DNA from: an uncultured Methanobrevibacter sp. | GTDB lineage: Archaea > Methanobacteriota > Methanobacteria > Methanobacteriales > Methanobacteriaceae | Length of the DNA: 51,741 nucleotides | Reading direction: 5' to 3' | Assembly: GCA_902785855.1 (NCBI GenBank) | Contig: CADAAJ010000002.1 | Coordinates: 1-51,741, forward strand | Shown: in pieces, positions 30,450 to 37,384 of the stretch | Layout: each line of letters opens with the position of its first letter | How positions within the stretch are numbered: the stretch's first letter is position 1 | Position numbers and translations under genes: made by a program | Notes under the pieces: generated by a model | What the model was told of the DNA's origin: nothing | What the model saw: only the letters and a program-made list of their open reading frames with translations | The model's database searches: none

Positions 30450-30944
30450 ATGATGGATAGTAGTGAAGCTATTTACAATGGTCTTAAAGATGCAGGAATA
30501 GATTTTATTGTCAGTGTTCCCTGTGTTAACCTATCAAAAATATTAGATATGCTTAATGAAGATGATGAAATAACCCACATTCCAGTAACCCGTGAAGAAG
30601 AAGGTATTGGAATTTGTGCCGGAGCTTATTTAGGTGGTAAAAAAACCGCTATTTTAATGCAAAATTCAGGACTTGGAAATTCAATTAATGCATTAAAATC
30701 ACTTACTGAATTATATAATTTCCCTTTGTTAATGATAATGAGTCACCGTGGAACTGATGGTGAAAATATTGTAGGTCAAGTTCCAATGGGGCAGTCCACA
30801 CCAAGATTATTGGAAGCTATGAATTTTAAATTTTTTAAACCAGATACCCCTGAAGCAGCTTATGAAGATATAAAATTATCCTGGAATTTATCCGAAGAAG
30901 AAGGTCTTCCAGTCAGTATTCTTTTAGAGATTAAATATTGGTGA
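30450..30944 (+). CDS. comD: Sulfopyruvate decarboxylase, alpha subunit
   Basis: 164 residues. With ComE it decarboxylates sulfopyruvate to sulfoacetaldehyde in coenzyme M synthesis, using thiamine diphosphate. It is the N-terminal (pyrimidine-binding) half of a TPP enzyme: the catalytic Glu is in [18 protein letters not shown], followed by [13 protein letters not shown] and the MSHRG segment. Two adjacent ATGs at 30450 and 30453 are possible starts; GTGAT just before them fits the second better. comE follows four bases after the stop. Confidence 0.95.
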
Positions 30945-30948
30945 TAAC

Positions 30949-31488
30949 ATGACCAGAAGAGATGCTATACTTGAAATAATGAATCAAATTGATGATGAAT
31001 TGATTATTTGTAATATTGGATTTCCATCAAGAGAATTATACGATTTAGAGGATAGAGATAAAAATTTCTATATGATTGGTTCAATGGGACTTGCTTCATC
31101 AATAGGCTTTGGATTAGCTTTGGCAAAACCTGATAAAGATATTGTTGTTATTGATGGTGACGGATCATTATTAATGAATATGGGCTCCCTTGTAACTATT
31201 TTTGCAAACAATCCTAAAAATTTAACATGGATTGTAATTGATAACGGTGCATATGGCTCTACTGGTAATCAGGACACATATGCTAAAGTAATAGATTTAG
31301 TAGATATTGCAAAAAGTGTCGGATTTAAAAATAGTTATAATTTTAATGAAATTGACTTAAAAGAAATAATTAATAGTGATGATGTGAGTTTTATTGTATA
31401 TGAAACTGATGCAGGAAATTCCTCTGCACCAATCATTGATTTAGATCCAGTAACAATTAAAAAAAGGTTTATGAAATCAATTGAATAA
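30949..31488 (+). CDS. comE: Sulfopyruvate decarboxylase, beta subunit
   Basis: 179 residues, the diphosphate-binding half of the TPP enzyme. The motif GDGSLLMNMGS (from ~68) binds Mg-TPP, preceded by MGLASSIGFGLALA and followed by IDNGAYGSTGNQ. It acts with ComD. The GGTGAT ribosome site lies in the comD stop region, so translation is coupled. It ends eight bases before the convergent HdrA-like gene, the last gene of the operon that begins with comA. Confidence 0.95.
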   Translation: MTRRDAILEIMNQIDDELIICNIGFPSRELYDLEDRDKNFYMIGSMGLASSIGFGLALAKPDKDIVVIDGDGSLLMNMGSLVTIFANNPKNLTWIVIDNGAYGSTGNQDTYAKVIDLVDIAKSVGFKNSYNFNEIDLKEIINSDDVSFIVYETDAGNSSAPIIDLDPVTIKKRFMKSIE

Positions 31489-31496
31489 CATAAACC

Positions 31497-33800
31497 TTAT
31501 TTCCCATCCAATTCAGCTATTCTTCTGTCAAACTCTGTTAATTTACGAGCAAGACCAGTGAAATAAGGAATATAAACTTTTGAAAAAGTAATTCTTTCAG
31601 GGTCTTCATCAAGTTCAATTAATCTATTTTTAACACCCTGTATTTTACGTTCAACTTCATCATACATTAAATCACCAGGGAACTCACCAATAAATACACC
31701 ATCAGCACCATTTTCAAGTGCATACCTTATATGTTTTGGTGTTACACGATTAACTGAAATAACTTTAATAATATGGATTGATTCAGGATAGGATAGTCTG
31801 TTAACACCGATATTATCAGCAGCAGTATAACCTATATTATCCAAAAAGACAAGTATCATACGTTCGCCTTTCTGTTTTTTAGATAATACTCCGCCAATAG
31901 TTGCCTTAATCTTCTCATCAATATTACCATTAATAGCAATAGCTCTCTGTTCACATCCAATAAGACATTTTCCACATCCTGTACAGCTCATCGGATCAAT
32001 ATATATTTCATCATTATGAATACTCATTGATTTATATTTACAATGTGCAATACATTCTCCACACACAATACATCTTTCAGTGTCAATTTCTGCAATGAAT
32101 GGTTCAATTTCCACGCCACCATAATTATATTCACCTACTTTTGATGCAGCTGCTGTTGCCTGCATTATTGAATCTGTAATATCTTTTGGCTCATGTGCTG
32201 TTCCACAAACAAAAATTCCCTGTACATCAGTAGCAATAGGTTTGATTTTTGGGTGTGATTCTTTGATAAATCCATCTTCAGTAGTACCTACATTTAAAAT
32301 TTCAGCAATTTCTTCAGTACCTTTAGAAGGCTCCATTGCAGTTGAAAGAACAACCATATCTGCTTCTATTTCAACAAATTCTCCTTTAATAGTATCTTCT
32401 GTTCTGACAATAAAGTTGTCACCTTTTCTAACAACTTCTCCCGGACGTCCTCTTAAAAATCTGACTTCATTTTCCTGAGTGTGTTTATAATATTTTTCAA
32501 ACATTCCAGGAGTTCTAACATCAGTATAACATATTAAAACATCAGTATCCGGATATTTATGCTTGATAATATTTGCATTTTTAAGAGCAACAGTACAACA
32601 TATTTTTGAGCAGTATTTATGCCCGTCAGGTTTTTCATCACGTGAACCTACACACTGTATCATTACAACACGCTTTGGAACTTCACCATTTGATTTTAAA
32701 AGTTTACCTTTAGTCGGACCGTTAACACCAGTAATACGACCCAATTCAGATTGAGTTATTACATCATCATAACGGGTATAACCGTATTCCGGACGTTTTT
32801 CCATATCAAAAAGCTTATGTCCTGTTGCAACAACAATTGAACCAACTTGGAGAGGAATTCTCTCAGATTTTCCCCTTAGTTTAATAGCTTTCATACTACA
32901 AACTTTTACACAGTTACTGCATTTGGTACAATTATCCATATCAATTACATATGATTCCGGATAGGACTGGCCAAAAGGTCTGTAAATAGCTTTACGCATT
33001 GATAAATTATCATTCCAATCATTAGGAACTTCAACTTCACATACTTCTGCACATTTACCGCATGAAATACATTTATCTTCATCAACATATCTTGGAGATT
33101 TTTCCAAAATCAGATTATATGTTCCTGCCCTTCTTTCAGCTTCAATTACTTTAGTATTTGTTAAAACTTTAATATTTTCATTCCATACAAGTTCATTAAG
33201 TATTGGGTTTAACAAACACATACCACATTCTTCAGCAATTTTAACCGGTGAAAATACTTTACCAATTTTTGCCATGTGTCCACCAATAGAAGGAGATTGT
33301 TCTATGAGAGTTACTTTAGTACCCTGTTTAGCTAGTGATAGTGCTGCATTCATACCTGCAATTCCACCACCAATTACAGCTACTTCATCCGGAGTTTGAC
33401 AATAAATTGGATCAACAGCATCGGATTGTTTTACTTTTTCTATTGAAGCATTGATTAAACTGATAGCTTTATTGGTTGCTTTTTTACTGTCATCATGTAC
33501 CCAAGAACACTGTTCACGGATATTTGCCATGTCCATTAAATAAGGATTAAGAGGTTTTACATAGTCCTGAAATGTTTTTTCATGAGATATCGGTGAGCAA
33601 GCTGCAACAACTACCCTATCTAAATCATAATCAAAAATTGCATCTCTAATAATTTTACGACCATTTAGTGAACATAAGTTTTCAAATTGCCCTATAAAAT
33701 CAACATCAAGTTCTTCTTTAACTTTATCCAAATCAATGGTGTCAGATATATTCCCACCACATTCACATAAAAATACTCCAACTTTCAAATCATCCCTCAT
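31497..33800 (-). CDS. HdrA-like flavo-iron-sulfur protein fused to cysteine-free MvhD domain
   Basis: 767 residues. Residues 1-~645 are HdrA: GVFLCECGGN at the N-terminus, AACSPISHEKTF, the FAD motif GGGIAG (~143), ECGMCLLNP, and four ferredoxin motifs (CISCGKCAEVC, CTKCSNCVKVC, CIVCGECIAHC, CTGCGKCLIGC). Residues ~650-767 align to MvhD (ADNIGVNRLSYPESIHIIKV ... ENGADGVFIGEFPGDLMY ... ERITFSKV). HdrA-MvhD fusions are known (HdrA2 of Methanosarcina), but here all MvhD cysteines that should bind a [2Fe-2S] cluster are replaced and the domain has none. A GGAGG ribosome site and an ATGA overlap couple it to the HdrB-like gene. It is probably a paralogue, not the main heterodisulfide reductase. 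Confidence 0.9.
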   Translation of the reverse strand: MRDDLKVGVFLCECGGNISDTIDLDKVKEELDVDFIGQFENLCSLNGRKIIRDAIFDYDLDRVVVAACSPISHEKTFQDYVKPLNPYLMDMANIREQCSWVHDDSKKATNKAISLINASIEKVKQSDAVDPIYCQTPDEVAVIGGGIAGMNAALSLAKQGTKVTLIEQSPSIGGHMAKIGKVFSPVKIAEECGMCLLNPILNELVWNENIKVLTNTKVIEAERRAGTYNLILEKSPRYVDEDKCISCGKCAEVCEVEVPNDWNDNLSMRKAIYRPFGQSYPESYVIDMDNCTKCSNCVKVCSMKAIKLRGKSERIPLQVGSIVVATGHKLFDMEKRPEYGYTRYDDVITQSELGRITGVNGPTKGKLLKSNGEVPKRVVMIQCVGSRDEKPDGHKYCSKICCTVALKNANIIKHKYPDTDVLICYTDVRTPGMFEKYYKHTQENEVRFLRGRPGEVVRKGDNFIVRTEDTIKGEFVEIEADMVVLSTAMEPSKGTEEIAEILNVGTTEDGFIKESHPKIKPIATDVQGIFVCGTAHEPKDITDSIMQATAAASKVGEYNYGGVEIEPFIAEIDTERCIVCGECIAHCKYKSMSIHNDEIYIDPMSCTGCGKCLIGCEQRAIAINGNIDEKIKATIGGVLSKKQKGERMILVFLDNIGYTAADNIGVNRLSYPESIHIIKVISVNRVTPKHIRYALENGADGVFIGEFPGDLMYDEVERKIQGVKNRLIELDEDPERITFSKVYIPYFTGLARKLTEFDRRIAELDGK

Positions 33801-34738
33801 TTTTTAACCTCCTTTAAATCCTTAATTATAGAGTCTATTGGTACAGTATGTGCTTTAACACCAATAACTTTATCAAAATCACCACCCATAGCCAGTGCAA
33901 TAAACTGTGCAATATTTAAATGAATAGCTTTGAAATTTCTTCCTTCTCTTTCTGCTATTAAATGCTGATATCTGTCAAACTGAATATGGCAATTAGGACA
34001 CAAATGAACTAAAATATCAACATCCTCATCACCAATAGCATTCATTTTATCTGCAGTTGCTGTAAAAGATAAATCAGGATTTGAATATCTTTGTCTAAAA
34101 CCAGTTCCACATGTTGCCCTTTTGTGATCATACCATCCAATTGTTTTACATCCACATTCTTCTATTAGCTCATCCATGATATTTGGATCTCTTACACCAC
34201 CAATTGTATCTTCATAATGGACTTTACAATAATGACATCCATGGTGTGTAGCTATTTTATAATCACTTAAATCATATTTGATTTTATCTTTAATTTCATC
34301 TTTTTTACCATATAAAATATCTACAACATGATAAATATTTTCTGTTGGTTTTAAATCATCTTTTTCATATTTGAAATGACTTAAACCATTTTCATCAAAA
34401 AGCTGGTTAATATGATTTCTCAAATCATCTTTTTTATTAAGTAATTTAACTGATTTTTTATTGATTGCATAACATGTTGCACACATCATAACAAGATTTG
34501 GTCTTCCCATATCCTTTGCAATTCTAAAATTTCTTGCACCAATAGCAGATGTGTCAATCTGATTAAATACATCTGAATAATGTCCAAGACCAGTACAGCA
34601 GGTTTGTTTATCTGAAATTTCATAATCAATACCTAATTTATCAAAAACAAATTTAGTAGATGCTTCAACTCCAGGATATTCTACACTTACAAGACAACTT
34701 CTAAAAAGAAGTAAATCTTTATCAGGAACTACTTTCAT
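33797..34738 (-). CDS. HdrB-like protein, second CCG motif incomplete
   Basis: 313 residues with two CCG-type cysteine motifs like HdrB, which binds the noncubane [4Fe-4S] clusters that cleave CoM-S-S-CoB. The first motif is intact: C in LFRSCLVS, CC in TCCTGLGHY, CATC. The second has C in HHGCHYC and CPNC, but the double Cys position reads ATCGTG, so one ligand is missing. Extra cysteines nearby (GCHYC, ECGC) might compensate. An AGGAGG ribosome site precedes the ATG. Coupled by 4-base overlaps on both sides. It is likely a specialised HdrB paralogue with a different substrate. Confidence 0.88.
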   Translation of the reverse strand: MKVVPDKDLLLFRSCLVSVEYPGVEASTKFVFDKLGIDYEISDKQTCCTGLGHYSDVFNQIDTSAIGARNFRIAKDMGRPNLVMMCATCYAINKKSVKLLNKKDDLRNHINQLFDENGLSHFKYEKDDLKPTENIYHVVDILYGKKDEIKDKIKYDLSDYKIATHHGCHYCKVHYEDTIGGVRDPNIMDELIEECGCKTIGWYDHKRATCGTGFRQRYSNPDLSFTATADKMNAIGDEDVDILVHLCPNCHIQFDRYQHLIAEREGRNFKAIHLNIAQFIALAMGGDFDKVIGVKAHTVPIDSIIKDLKEVKK

Positions 34739-35337
34739 TTATAATCCTCCTGAGAAGCTCTGATTTTTTCAATTTTATCCTTAAAACCAGTTATAGTTAA
34801 TATTTTACTTACCTCATCAATAGTTTCTTTTGATGGCATTAATGGAGGATCAAGTTCAAGTTCATTTCTTATTTCATCCAAATGCAGTCTAAAATCCCAC
34901 CATCCCGGCACATCTCTGTCAATATCTTTGAAAAATATTTCAGGTATTGCACCAATAGCTGCATTAAAATATGAATCTGCAAATCCCATATATTCATAAA
35001 GTTTATCATAACCTATTTTATTTTCAATAGCCATCTGCTTTAATATCTGATTTACTTCACATACACTATTTCCAACAGGACAAACACTGTGGCAAGTATA
35101 ACAATAAAAACAGTTCCAAATATTATCATCGGCTAAAATTGATTCATCACCTTCCAAAACCCTTTCAATAATATCTCTTGGATTATAATCGGAATGTCTT
35201 GCAGCAGGACAGATAGATGTGCACATTCCACACTGTACACATTTTAAAACACCTTCATCCTTTGAGTTTTTTACATCTTCAATAATTTTTTCTGCAAAAT
35301 TAATAGGTGAATCTGAAATTTTTTGTTGACTGGACAT
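34735..35337 (-). CDS. HdrC-like ferredoxin protein
   Basis: 200 residues from the ATG at 35337, chosen because AAGGTGAG lies just upstream; the frame is open 12 codons further but overlaps the previous gene. Two intact [4Fe-4S] motifs are visible: CVQCGMCTSICP and CFYCYTCHSVCP, as in HdrC, which passes electrons from HdrA to HdrB. The C-terminal helices continue to ~200. It sits in the order C-B-A, each coupled to the next, after the marker 16 gene. Confidence 0.9.
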   Translation of the reverse strand: MSSQQKISDSPINFAEKIIEDVKNSKDEGVLKCVQCGMCTSICPAARHSDYNPRDIIERVLEGDESILADDNIWNCFYCYTCHSVCPVGNSVCEVNQILKQMAIENKIGYDKLYEYMGFADSYFNAAIGAIPEIFFKDIDRDVPGWWDFRLHLDEIRNELELDPPLMPSKETIDEVSKILTITGFKDKIEKIRASQEDYK

Positions 35338-35347
35338 TAATCTCACC

Positions 35348-36598
35348 TTAAAGTTTAAATTCAGAGTTTTCAATCATTTTCTTTAATTTTAAAGATAATT
35401 TATTACCCCGTAATCTGTCTGACTGTCTGCAGATAATAGGAATATTAACCATTTTATCATTAATATTTAAATCAACATTACCTGTATTCATTGTAAATGC
35501 ATCATGTTTACAATAATTAGCACACATTCCACATCCAAAACAATATGCCAGATTTAAAGAATCTTTTTTAAATGCATTTGTAGGACATATTTCTTCAACA
35601 TGACAATTATCACAGCTTAAACATTTAGACCTGTCATATTGTGGTCTTAAATCATAATCTTTCCATAGTTTATCATAATCTGTTTCATCAAGTGGAAGAT
35701 GGCGTCCTTTAATATCTGCAACAGGAATTTCAATTTCACTGTCAGTTACAAGCAAGTTATTATAAATTTCTTCATTTAAAACAGGAATTGGAATAGCTAC
35801 CGTATCATAAATTTCTCCACCCTGACCTGTTTTAAATCCTCCCAAATAGTATGAATCCATTTTTGTTAAATCAGCTGATAACATTAAATTTGGTTTTTCG
35901 TAACTTGATCTTGTACCGTCACCTAAAATATAACCTACAGCACCGTTTAGTAAAACTTTACAACCTTCTTTTATTACATTGTGAGGAATATCATTTTGAA
36001 GAGGATTTAAATCACCACATCCTGAAAATGTCAAACCGGACAGATTACCTTCAAGTGGTGTTGCTGCAAATATTGATTTAACAGATTCTTTATTTGGATT
36101 AGTAAAAGCAGTGTAATTTTTAAATGCCATACGTGAACCAATGATTTGTGCTCTTGTTATATCATCTATTGTAATTGTGTTTTCAATTGTTAATCCGTCA
36201 ACACTTTCTACACGTACATCTATGTTTTTGCCTTCTAAAAGTTCTTTTAAAAGGAATCCTCCACCATAATTTTCATCATAAATAGAATGAGAAGTTCCAT
36301 GTAAAATAACATCAACAGAACCTAACCATTCATTAGGACAAGGTCCTGCAAAAGCTGGTACTCCATTTAAATAAACTTCACGGGCTCTGATAAATTCCCC
36401 AGGAGGTGAAATTATAAAGTTTAAAATAGCTGCTGTACCGCTCATAACTCCGCATGTTCCTGTTGTTACAACATCAACATCTTCAAAAGCAGGTGCATCA
36501 TTATTTTTTACTAATTTTTTAAATTCTTCGGCAGTATATATATTAGCTTCACCATTTTCAATTTTTTCATTTATTTGGCTAATATCTCTTGCTTTCAA
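35348..36598 (-). CDS. Methanogenesis marker 16 type protein (DUF39 plus two ferredoxin motifs)
   Basis: 416 residues. The first ~320 are DUF39/COG1900: TTGTCGVMSGTAAI, GPCPNEWLG, SGCGDLNP and GYILGDGTRSS. The C-terminus has two [4Fe-4S] motifs (CLSCDNCHVEEICP and CFGCGMCANYC). A DUF39 protein with a ferredoxin partner is known to convert aspartate semialdehyde to homocysteine in Methanosarcina; the marker 16 subgroup has been discussed as acting on another aldehyde. Being directly after comA, an aldehyde-to-thiol step in coenzyme M synthesis is an attractive inference. The start is TTG at 36598 with an AAGGGG ribosome site; no ATG is near. Confidence 0.85.
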   Translation of the reverse strand: MKARDISQINEKIENGEANIYTAEEFKKLVKNNDAPAFEDVDVVTTGTCGVMSGTAAILNFIISPPGEFIRAREVYLNGVPAFAGPCPNEWLGSVDVILHGTSHSIYDENYGGGFLLKELLEGKNIDVRVESVDGLTIENTITIDDITRAQIIGSRMAFKNYTAFTNPNKESVKSIFAATPLEGNLSGLTFSGCGDLNPLQNDIPHNVIKEGCKVLLNGAVGYILGDGTRSSYEKPNLMLSADLTKMDSYYLGGFKTGQGGEIYDTVAIPIPVLNEEIYNNLLVTDSEIEIPVADIKGRHLPLDETDYDKLWKDYDLRPQYDRSKCLSCDNCHVEEICPTNAFKKDSLNLAYCFGCGMCANYCKHDAFTMNTGNVDLNINDKMVNIPIICRQSDRLRGNKLSLKLKKMIENSEFKL

Positions 36599-36610
36599 TT
36601 TAAAAACCCC

Positions 36611-37384
36611 TTATTTAATTTTACCTACTGTATCTCCTCTAAGTCCTCTTCTTAAAGTTTCAAGAGAAGTGATATCATCACTGGAAACATTACCAAGATT
36701 TACAGTATTTCCTAATTTTAAAATAAAAAATACCTGCTGGTCTTTATTTGGTGCTTCCCAGAGAAGTTTATCTCCATTGAAATTACGAAGAATATAATCG
36801 ATTTCATCTTCTTTTGCATTTCCTGATTTATCATAAATTCCAATGTTTTTTCCACCTTCTCTAGCTTCAACAATGATTAATGAAGAACCTGCATCAAGTT
36901 CATCCTGCATATAATTAATTCTTTCATCCAAAGTTAATTCTTTATCAAGATTTGGATCTTTTTTCCCAACTTCAGATAAAACTTCAAAACCTTCACTTTT
37001 AGCCTTATCTATACATTCCAATTTATTTTCATGAGGAATATTAATAGATCCATCAGATATTTCTACTGCTTTAAATCCAAGATTATGTGCTTCTTTGAAA
37101 AATTCATCAAGTTTATTATTCATATAAGCAAGTTCAAATAATGTACCGCCAGTATAAGGTACAATATTATGAGACTGATACATTTTAACCTTTGATTTGA
37201 TAATATCCTGTTCATGGACAATAGAAGTTCCCCATCCGAATTTAAGATAATCTACATAGTCTCCGGAAATTTCCATTAAACTTTTTGCGGTTTGATAACC
37301 TAATCCTTTATCTAAAACCATTGTAATGCCTTTACTTCTTGGTTTTTCTTCACGCTTAATAGATAAAAATTCAAATGATTTCAA
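36611..37384 (-). CDS. comA: Phosphosulfolactate synthase
   Basis: 257 residues from a TTG at 37384. ComA adds sulfite to phosphoenolpyruvate, the first step of coenzyme M synthesis. It is a TIM-barrel protein with family segments MVLDKGL, VDYLKFGWGTS, YTGGTLFE, AVEISDGS, VGKKDP, and LETLRRGLRGDT at the C-terminus. The start is by comparison with the family, which begins (M)KxFEFL; GTG codons at 37399 and 37393 are alternatives. First gene of the operon comA - marker 16 - HdrC/B/A-like, 12 bases before the marker 16 start. Confidence 0.94.
   Translation of the reverse strand: MKSFEFLSIKREEKPRSKGITMVLDKGLGYQTAKSLMEISGDYVDYLKFGWGTSIVHEQDIIKSKVKMYQSHNIVPYTGGTLFELAYMNNKLDEFFKEAHNLGFKAVEISDGSINIPHENKLECIDKAKSEGFEVLSEVGKKDPNLDKELTLDERINYMQDELDAGSSLIIVEAREGGKNIGIYDKSGNAKEDEIDYILRNFNGDKLLWEAPNKDQQVFFILKLGNTVNLGNVSSDDITSLETLRRGLRGDTVGKIK

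Follow-up and report, generated by a model that had tools for sequence, protein, structure and literature searches.

To our knowledge every methanogen needs coenzyme M (CoM), and the CoM synthase was assigned only recently. A mutant study in Methanosarcina acetivorans identified it as MMP16 (marker 16), or ComF (PLoS Genet 2025, PMC12068725); according to that paper, E. coli with MMP16 alone makes CoM, and MMP16 deletion in M. acetivorans gives a CoM auxotroph in the absence of sulfide. No electron donor for the CoM synthase is reported in the literature examined. The L-aspartate semialdehyde sulfurtransferase (MA1821/MA1822) is described as using related COG1900 chemistry together with a ferredoxin (PMC12068725); it differs from MMP16 in that its ferredoxin is a separate subunit and in that it acts in homocysteine synthesis. 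The M. acetivorans MMP16 gene (MA3299) adjoins comDE, and no Hdr gene was found within 18 kb around it. We know of no Hdr partner for the sulfurtransferase.

In canonical HdrB proteins, two noncubane clusters are bound by two full CCG motifs with five cysteines apiece. The Hdr relatives compared here are HdrABC-MvhADG of hydrogenotrophic methanogens (PDB 5odc, 8rvu) and HdrA2B2C2 and HdrA1B1C1 of M. acetivorans. HdrA2 is fused to an MvhD-like domain reported to have a [2Fe-2S] cluster (PMC5296606). HdrA1B1C1 has hitherto been treated as an energy-metabolism enzyme, and the CoM and sulfide effects of its mutant have been explained indirectly.

The window, the whole stretch of DNA analyzed here, is 51,741 nt from an uncultured Methanobrevibacter sp. 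(GCA_902785855.1, contig CADAAJ010000002.1), and open reading frame calls place in it five minus-strand genes in the order comA, MMP16, hdrC, hdrB, and hdrA. The comA gene (36611–37384, with alternative starts TTG 37384 or GTG 37399) encodes phosphosulfolactate synthase, the enzyme of the first CoM step (PF02679, E 1.2e-96; TIGR03849, 331 bits, cut-off 280). The MMP16 gene (35348–36598; TIGR03287, 540 bits, cut-off 364) encodes a COG1900/HcyBio domain with a ferredoxin-like insert (35483–35641; ferredoxin-family matches within residues 316–372) in which alignments place eight cysteines, and it has the same family and domains as MA3299, with which it aligns throughout. That such a DUF39/COG1900 and ferredoxin protein makes CoM from sulfoacetaldehyde was correctly predicted originally, yet it had already been published (PMC12068725), and MMP16 was dropped as a new discovery. 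The hdrC-like gene (34735–35337; NF041890, 330 bits, cut-off 270) encodes two [4Fe-4S] motifs; its start is taken as ATG 35337, and the reading frame itself opens at TTG 35373. It is followed by an hdrB-like gene of the HdrB1 (NF041780) family (33797–34738; 540 bits, cut-off 450) and by an hdrA-like gene for a 767 aa flavoprotein (31497–33800; NF041891, 1398 bits, cut-off 1300; PDB 5odc_A, E 3.8e-156), which ends in an FlpD/MvhD-like domain without [2Fe-2S] cysteines (31509–31856; PF02662, E 2.6e-25, residues 649–764). On the plus strand, comD (30450–30944; TIGR03845, 223 bits) and comE (30949–31488; TIGR03846, 241 bits), for the alpha and beta subunits of sulfopyruvate decarboxylase, converge on the operon, leaving 8 bases between comE and the hdrA stop. 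The comA/MMP16 and MMP16/hdrC gaps are 12 and 10 bases (the latter with the ATG start), and hdrC/hdrB and hdrB/hdrA each overlap by 4 bases. All seven genes score above the curated model cut-offs; coordinates and family models thus confirm the arrangement originally described, five co-directional genes with gaps or overlaps of at most 12 bases and comDE facing the operon end.

The original prediction also called the trio paralogs, and this is borne out: the same genome has an ordinary HdrA (640 aa) on contig C45, an ordinary HdrB (308 aa) with adjoining HdrC on contig C69, and two stand-alone MvhD proteins. As a second Hdr set, with an HdrB from the HdrA1B1C1 family, the trio forms one gene block with MMP16; a role as the main Hdr of the cell was ruled out by the ordinary HdrA and HdrBC on other contigs. 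The second CCG motif of the trio HdrB reads TCG for CCG (34106–34114), and this motif is one cysteine short (TCG, HCG, or SCG) in 104 of 104 unique NF041780-family members, all of which have an intact first motif. The ordinary HdrB of the window's genome keeps the second motif (MCCGAGGG); the trio HdrB does not have the two full motifs of canonical HdrB. The HdrA FAD and [4Fe-4S] motifs and both HdrC [4Fe-4S] motifs are present as in canonical HdrABC. In the MvhD-like tail of HdrA, four of the five MvhD cysteine columns, defined from four stand-alone MvhD sequences, have no cysteine in any of the 83 archaeal sequences (82 of which have a gap at one of these four columns), and the fifth has it in 4. 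The trio shares with HdrABC-MvhADG the HdrA core, the HdrC motifs, and the first HdrB motif, but differs in the shortened second motif, in the fused HdrA tail that has lost its cluster cysteines, and in lying in an operon with CoM genes. Like HdrA2, the window HdrA is fused to an MvhD-like domain, but the [2Fe-2S] cysteines that characterize the HdrA2 type are gone.

The closest relative is HdrA1B1C1 itself, whose M. acetivorans locus (MA3126-3128) was identified with six published deletion primers. The two trios have in common the HdrB family (the M. acetivorans ortholog scores 509 bits against NF041780, cut-off 450), the missing HdrB cysteine, and the HdrA MvhD-like tail without cluster cysteines. 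They also share an HdrB clade: in a tree of 29 rows, 24 family rows, including the trio HdrB and HdrB1, split from five ordinary HdrB rows with support 100/100, with the branching inside the 24-row clade partly open and three bacterial rows unlike in composition. On the other hand, the M. acetivorans gene order is A-C-B rather than C-B-A, its trio lies 189 kb from MMP16 rather than in one operon with it, the window HdrA and HdrC have NCBIfam models of their own, and HdrB1 is without the extra CHYC cysteine.

In the window's genus, MMP16 lies at most 0.7 kb from the trio HdrB on the same contig in 56 of 57 HdrB-bearing genomes (its own included), and this neighborhood is not chance. Over the order, summed by genus, MMP16 is within 5 kb of the trio HdrB in 69 of 106 HdrB-bearing genomes and in none of the 33 genomes of eight genera, Methanosphaera included, where "not linked" takes in genes on different contigs. 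Among 71 named loci of the order (species partly repeated; three titled only "archaeon"), chosen from 110 related loci by keeping the 80 best and leaving out eight bacterial and one Methanoperedenaceae locus, 44 have a co-directional MMP16 no more than 1.2 kb upstream of hdrC, and 9 further are broken by contig ends. One genome (G059) has comA-[MMP16-hdrCBA]-[MMP16-hdrCBA] facing comDE, so that the block is duplicated as a unit. Other orders are hdrC-hdrB-MMP16 (G016, G017), hdrC-MMP16 (G020), and hdrCBA-comD-comE in M. curvatus (L042/L012); in M. filiformis (L090) MMP16 is near hdrCBA and comDE. In the Methanosarcina class, linkage was seen in 1 of 32 genomes only (G282, where cysteate synthase-comDE-MMP16 adjoins hdrA-hdrC-hdrB), a case that is statistically weak alone, as we estimate that about 0.1–0.2 would be expected by chance among 32. 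The bacterial loci (L093-L100) gave no further clue, Pfam having been run on L094. A lack of conservation of the Hdr-like genes with MMP16 or comA elsewhere had been named at the outset as a finding against the proposal; in many Methanobacteriaceae genera, though not in all, the outcome favors it.

Among Methanobacteriaceae, 110 genomes carry both comA and MMP16, and 102 of these have the trio HdrB; of 21 genomes that carry neither, 1 has it (genomes in a mixed state, 7 in all, were set aside). With completeness of 90% or more and contamination of 5% or less required, the figures are 67 of 69 versus 0 of 7. Since related genomes are not independent samples, the Fisher p-values for presence and linkage overstate the significance. 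Twenty-two genomes were scored ComA-less, for two of which (G039, G121) this rests on there being no entry among the matches. The HdrB-less genomes without both com genes include one single-contig assembly of 2,937,203 bases, and seven well-assembled members of the 21 keep an ordinary-strength HdrB match (E 5e-46 or better). The counts were left as computed, unadjusted for the individual exceptions. The one genome with HdrB and neither com gene (G031, 64% complete) has it on a 4,062-base contig ending at the operon; G064, scored HdrB-less, has hdr genes beside its MMP16 that are readable there only in part; the G062 contig ends directly after comA; matches run into a contig end in G079 (HdrB) and in G100, G104, and G141 (MMP16); and G015, G107, G108, and G125 are 67–87% complete. 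G136 (91% complete), with MMP16 and no trio beside it, is a real exception, and in G008 (95% complete) the trio and comA are present while no MMP16 reaches the cut-off. No MMP16 over the cut-off was found in one Methanoperedenaceae MAG with the trio (HdrB 418 bits, below the cut-off) or in three genomes with bacterial relatives. In a Methanosarcina-class sample, all 32 genomes whose HdrB1 scores over the cut-off have MMP16, versus 92 of the 127 other genomes, and 92 of 124 MMP16-bearing genomes have no HdrB1 over the cut-off. In two sister families, 11 of 12 genomes have MMP16 over the cut-off and none the trio HdrB; the trio is thus not required for MMP16. Where the trio adjoins comA-MMP16, a single deletion could remove all of these genes together.

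Published M. acetivorans mutants agree in part with a CoM role of the trio. On deletion of the trio, CoM-SH drops from 23.2 to 15.4 nmol/mg, cs/comDE transcripts are raised alongside, and CoB is below detection (PMC12713407), so the effect may not be CoM-specific. The mutant's doubling time is reported to rise by 81% with cysteine as sole sulfur source and by 19% with sulfide. hdrABC transcripts rise on MMP16 deletion and on CoM starvation and fall on CoM addition (PMC12068725). A trio mutant that still makes CoM had been named at the outset as a finding against such a role, and this is partly the case, as the mutant keeps CoM at a lower level (PMC12713407) and is reported to grow without added CoM.

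Since the trio lies in one operon with the CoM synthase and tends to be kept and lost jointly with it, it may power CoM synthesis rather than methane formation. The odds seem about even that it is a dedicated redox module for the last step of CoM synthesis, accessory and not essential, and its most likely function is that of an accessory reductase for ComF. The original proposal that the trio serves this step is favored by the gene neighborhoods, by the way trio and com genes occur or are missing together, and by the duplicated block, but MMP16 does not require it. The mutant physiology and the loss of one cluster's ligands from the ferredoxin insert of MMP16 copies beside hdrC(-hdrB) also count in its favor. 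HdrA would take electrons from ferredoxin (or F420H2), a source suggested because the hydrogenase inlet through the MvhD cysteines is gone, and they would then pass via HdrC to MMP16 and/or HdrB, supplying two electrons for sulfoacetaldehyde + sulfide -> CoM. Either an MMP16-bound adduct might be reduced through the ferredoxin insert, or a persulfide might be reduced at the altered HdrB site and the sulfide handed to MMP16; the trio would be a dispensable aid that makes the step efficient when sulfide is low. MMP16 as CoM synthase was already known; no report tying an Hdr trio to ComF or CoM synthesis was found in the literature searched, which comprised open-access main text without figures (S1 Fig of PMC12068725, on gene neighborhoods, among them). 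This link is one testable answer to both the donor question and that of the HdrA1B1C1 role, and it highlights a module missing from CoM-auxotroph-like rumen methanogens.

A possible, though somewhat doubtful, alternative is that the trio works in energy metabolism as an ordinary, alternative ferredoxin:CoM-S-S-CoB heterodisulfide reductase, placed beside comA and MMP16 by shared regulation or history. NCBIfam so labels all three subunits (ferredoxin:CoB-CoM heterodisulfide reductase), the first HdrB motif is intact throughout the family, and CoM alone does not speed up the mutant (12.6 to 11.5 h, p 0.20), although CoM plus acetate did. In methylotrophic growth, HdrA1B1C1 is proposed to link ferredoxin and F420 with CoM-S-S-CoB, but validation was still asked for in 2018 (PMC6019823). 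Such an enzyme would not lead one to expect a second motif one cysteine short in 104 of 104 members when the ordinary HdrB of the same genome is complete, nor duplication as a unit with MMP16, nor absence from 20 of the 21 genomes without comA and MMP16, the seven well-assembled of which must still reduce CoM-S-S-CoB and have their ordinary HdrB match. It is unlikely that the trio instead keeps finished CoM (or CoB) as a thiol, for example by reducing CoM disulfides, and is for that reason regulated along with synthesis. The transcript response to CoM starvation and addition (PMC12068725) and the mutant's altered thiol pools, with CoB unmeasurable (PMC12713407), fit this idea, but cells without comA and MMP16 must also keep CoM reduced, although 20 of the 21 such genomes have no trio HdrB, and the reduced share of CoM is higher, not lower, in the mutant (92.6 vs 82.3%; PMC12713407).

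Still less probable is a sulfur-oxidizing, sHdr-like module that makes sulfite for the first step of both CoM pathways (ComA and cysteate synthase). The cysteate synthase route begins with sulfite. So does the ComA route (PMC3087415), comA heads the operon, and loss in CoM-auxotroph-like genomes is predicted by this reading as well. The duplicated unit and the second copies, however, contain MMP16 and not comA, and where the cytoplasm is strongly reducing there would be no obvious acceptor for turning sulfide into sulfite. In sHdr complexes HdrB and HdrC occur in two copies each, along with lipoate-binding partner genes; the operon of the window encodes a single HdrB and a single HdrC, and general family models gave no obvious sHdr partner gene in it.

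A bolder form of the accessory-reductase reading, offered tentatively and rather improbable as a whole, is that in two archaeal lineages complexes of the HdrA1B1C1 type do not act as heterodisulfide reductases at all and instead form the half of CoM synthase that delivers electrons, with ferredoxin electrons passing from HdrA through HdrC to MMP16 for reductive thiolation and the altered HdrB site handling a persulfide, and that MMP16 in a Methanobacteriaceae side branch thereby dropped one ferredoxin cluster. The MMP16 insert keeps its eight cysteines in 63 of 70 unique sequences, as judged from alignment of 11 pattern-flagged ones, four of which (L001, with shifted spacing, L033, L053, and L152) have all eight. 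Two (L146, L147) are short of one cysteine, and five (L003/L090, L006, L007, L010, and L118) are without the ligands of one cluster; such one-cluster inserts occur in the MMP16 copies beside hdrC(-hdrB) in G016, G017, and G020, plus two others.

The block under study (31497-37384) lies on the minus strand, ends at 31497 and consists of comA, the gene for marker 16 (MMP16, or ComF), hdrC, hdrB and hdrA, while comD and comE, the sulfopyruvate decarboxylase genes, converge on it and end 8 bases from the hdrA stop codon. Five close-set co-directional genes with comDE facing their end had been noted from the sequence and are borne out, the gaps being no longer than 12 bases and two junctions overlapping by 4 bases; the products of all seven genes (comA, MMP16, hdrCBA and comDE) exceed curated NCBIfam cut-offs in a profile search. 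The same Methanobacteriaceae genome (137 contigs) also encodes an ordinary HdrA (640 aa), an ordinary HdrB (308 aa) with an HdrC alongside, and two stand-alone MvhD proteins, and the block's hdrCBA (the trio, as we also call same-family sets elsewhere) is its second Hdr set.

The original prediction's coenzyme M (CoM) synthase role for the DUF39 protein is right, though it had already been published: work from 2025 identified MMP16 as the chief CoM synthase in M. acetivorans, where the MMP16 mutant is auxotrophic for CoM when sulfide is absent, and across archaea MMP16 tracks the sulfoacetaldehyde-making genes (PMC12068725). An ATPase, a GTPase and a COG2000 protein are reported as frequent neighbors of CoM genes, and the available text names no Hdr gene among such neighbors (PMC12068725); our literature search found no paper that connects the genomic position of an Hdr trio with that of comA or MMP16. 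Second MMP16 copies in the Methanosarcina class (L146:6846-10338 and L147:8672-12205) lie behind what by eye are an ABC-type ATPase, a GTPase and a small Fe-S protein, the neighbor set called unexplained in that paper (PMC12068725), and a similar set is seen by eye downstream of comA at another locus (L132).

In the order-level sample of 150 genomes, trio HdrB, MMP16 and ComA exceed cut-off in 106, 122 and 127, respectively; a phylum-wide search yielded one further genome, without trio HdrB. The linkage holds in the window's genus, where MMP16 lies within 5 kb of trio HdrB on the same contig in 56/57 genomes, and wholly or partly in five other genera (2/2, 1/1, 3/3, 2/4 and 5/6), but not in the remaining eight (0/33; 0/19 in the genus of Methanosphaera), genes on different contigs being counted as unlinked. 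Of the 71 named loci from this order, 44 have MMP16 on the hdrC strand, no more than 1.2 kb upstream of that gene, with comA before MMP16 in 41; nine of the others are cut at contig ends and 18 are unlinked. Variants include a tandem second MMP16-hdrCBA unit without comA (genome G059), second copies in the order hdrC-hdrB-MMP16 (G016 and G017) or hdrC-MMP16 (G020), the order hdrCBA-comD-comE in M. curvatus, and a loose cluster of trio and com genes in M. filiformis. Linkage to MMP16 is found in 1/32 Methanosarcina-class trio bearers, genome G282, where cysteate synthase, comDE, MMP16 and hdrA-hdrC-hdrB lie within about 9 kb, MMP16 being on the strand opposite to cysteate synthase-comDE and hdrA-hdrC-hdrB diverging from it. 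Sixteen other genomes of this class have both on one contig, at linear distances of 66 kb to 2.9 Mb (best MMP16 copy).

Trio HdrB is present in 102/110 Methanobacteriaceae genomes with comA and MMP16 and in 1/21 with neither (seven mixed-state genomes left out), or 67/69 versus 0/7 when completeness is ≥90% and contamination ≤5%; this evidence is weaker than the p-values suggest, because relatives are not independent and a single deletion can remove the whole operon. The genomes with neither gene, 21 of 138 (G005, G012, G022-G024, G026-G028, G030-G034, G036, G038, G039, G063, G073, G090, G096 and G103), are spread over four genera (14, 5, 1 and 1); seven are well assembled. A trio with an essential separate job would be expected to outlast the loss of comA and MMP16, yet the sole trio HdrB among the 21 is on a contig fragment (G031). 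M. ruminantium M1 is a known CoM auxotroph (PMC12068725), and a 2026 survey names M. ruminantium and one MAG as the only exceptions to CoM synthesis by the classical route (PMC13135261). In the Methanosarcina-class sample (159 genomes) MMP16 is present in 32/32 genomes with HdrB1 over cut-off and in 92/127 others. The converse fails, MMP16 being common without the trio: in two sister families (12 genomes) MMP16 is found in 11 and trio HdrB in none.

NF041780, the family to which M. acetivorans HdrB1 belongs, gives window HdrB 540 bits, the ordinary HdrB model gives it 180, and window HdrA and HdrC exceed the Methanobacteria-specific models NF041891 and NF041890 and are under the Methanosarcina-model cut-offs. 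Locus L108 is confirmed as M. acetivorans hdrA1B1C1; all six published hdrABC-deletion primers match it exactly, in or around hdrA, hdrC and hdrB, and the L108 proteins exceed the cut-offs of NF041778-NF041780. When 29 HdrB sequences are placed in a tree, 24 family members (14 Methanobacteriaceae, six Methanosarcina class, one Methanoperedenaceae and three bacteria) separate from five ordinary HdrB with support 100/100, the branching within the 24 being only partly resolved. Actinobacterial, Thermoleophilia and Dormibacterota contigs (L093-L100) carry HdrB of the NF041780-type family, 42-44% identical; at the one bacterial locus examined (L094) the hdrB gene shares a cluster with genes for a giant HdrA-like protein bearing a second flavin oxidoreductase part and for another HdrA that has an MvhD domain. 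No MMP16 over cut-off was found in three bacterial genomes searched among carriers of family HdrB.

The ligand roles of the Hdr and MvhD cysteines are taken from the HdrABC structure literature, and their losses were measured here. All 104 unique HdrB sequences that match window HdrB at >220 bits, bacteria included, lack the first cysteine of the second CCG motif (T in 85, H in 17 and S in 2), so the second active-site cluster must differ; all retain the CC of the first motif, and the second CC is intact in the ordinary HdrB of the window genome. In 91/104 a CHYC motif adds a further cysteine (replaced by Y in 12 and T in 1), and the aligned Methanosarcina-type sequences have Y there. The C-terminus of window HdrA is an MvhD-like domain (PF02662, E 2.6e-25), as is that of M. 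acetivorans HdrA1 (E 1.6e-16), a match that disagrees with a review stating that HdrA1 is without the MvhD extension (PMC6019823). Four of the five cysteine columns defined by four stand-alone MvhD proteins hold no cysteine in 83/83 archaeal family HdrA (in 82 one of these columns is a gap), and only 4/83 have a cysteine in the fifth; thus the usual hydrogenase electron inlet is gone.

From the observed linkage, altered sites and joint presence we infer, with about even confidence, that the trio is a non-essential redox module devoted to the final step in making CoM, in which ferredoxin electrons would pass through HdrA and HdrC to MMP16 and HdrB would take either those electrons or a persulfide. 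The main alternative, that the trio is an ordinary alternative heterodisulfide reductase, seems to us rather unlikely. CoM alone fails to restore growth of the M. acetivorans hdrA1B1C1 mutant (12.6 to 11.5 h, p 0.20), which counts against a role in CoM synthesis, and CoM plus acetate does restore it (PMC9963511). Doubling time of this deletion strain rises by 19% with sulfide and by 81% where cysteine alone supplies the sulfur (PMC9963511). It contains 15.35 nmol/mg CoM-SH versus 23.24 in the parent, its coenzyme B (CoB) is below detection, and its cs (cysteate synthase) and comDE expression is raised, earlier transcript data being cited (PMC12713407). Transcripts of hdrABC are up in the MMP16 mutant until CoM is added; the available text gives no locus tag for this hdrABC, but the hdrA1B1C1 deletion strain is discussed in the same paper (PMC12068725). 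That HdrA1B1C1 in general is a reductase of CoM synthase is doubtful. A published review has asked for the role of HdrA1B1C1 to be validated (PMC6019823).

Five of 70 unique MMP16 sequences keep only four cysteines of the ferredoxin insert; motif one is without its first three and motif two without its last. They come from M. cuticularis (G014), G016, G017, G020 and M. filiformis, and their coordinates, sorted by locus number, are L003:11298-12560, L006:3642-4907, L007:8822-10099, L010:7861-9201 and L118:4569-5846. By the usual ferredoxin rule, the lost cysteines are those that hold one cluster of the two. The other MMP16 copy of G016, G017 and G020 retains all eight. Three of the five variants directly adjoin hdrC or hdrB; the trio is 2 kb off in M. 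filiformis and on another contig in M. cuticularis. Such a loss would agree with HdrC delivering electrons directly, though it is only suggestive.

In the CoM cluster of G282, a large subunit of the homoaconitase/isopropylmalate-dehydratase family directly follows hdrB1 (L114:7970-9253). Enzymes of this type can serve CoB synthesis, and this neighbor may accord with the undetected CoB in the hdrA1B1C1 mutant. In another Methanosarcina-class genome (G223:C1:1168000-1206000, loci L111 and L112), the last ∼100 hdrB1 codons recur as five short ORFs of 71-114 aa, spread over ∼20 kb downstream among 126-base repeats that by eye resemble surface beta-propeller genes; hdrB C-terminal pieces also lie near hdrB1 in two more genomes (G290 and G258).
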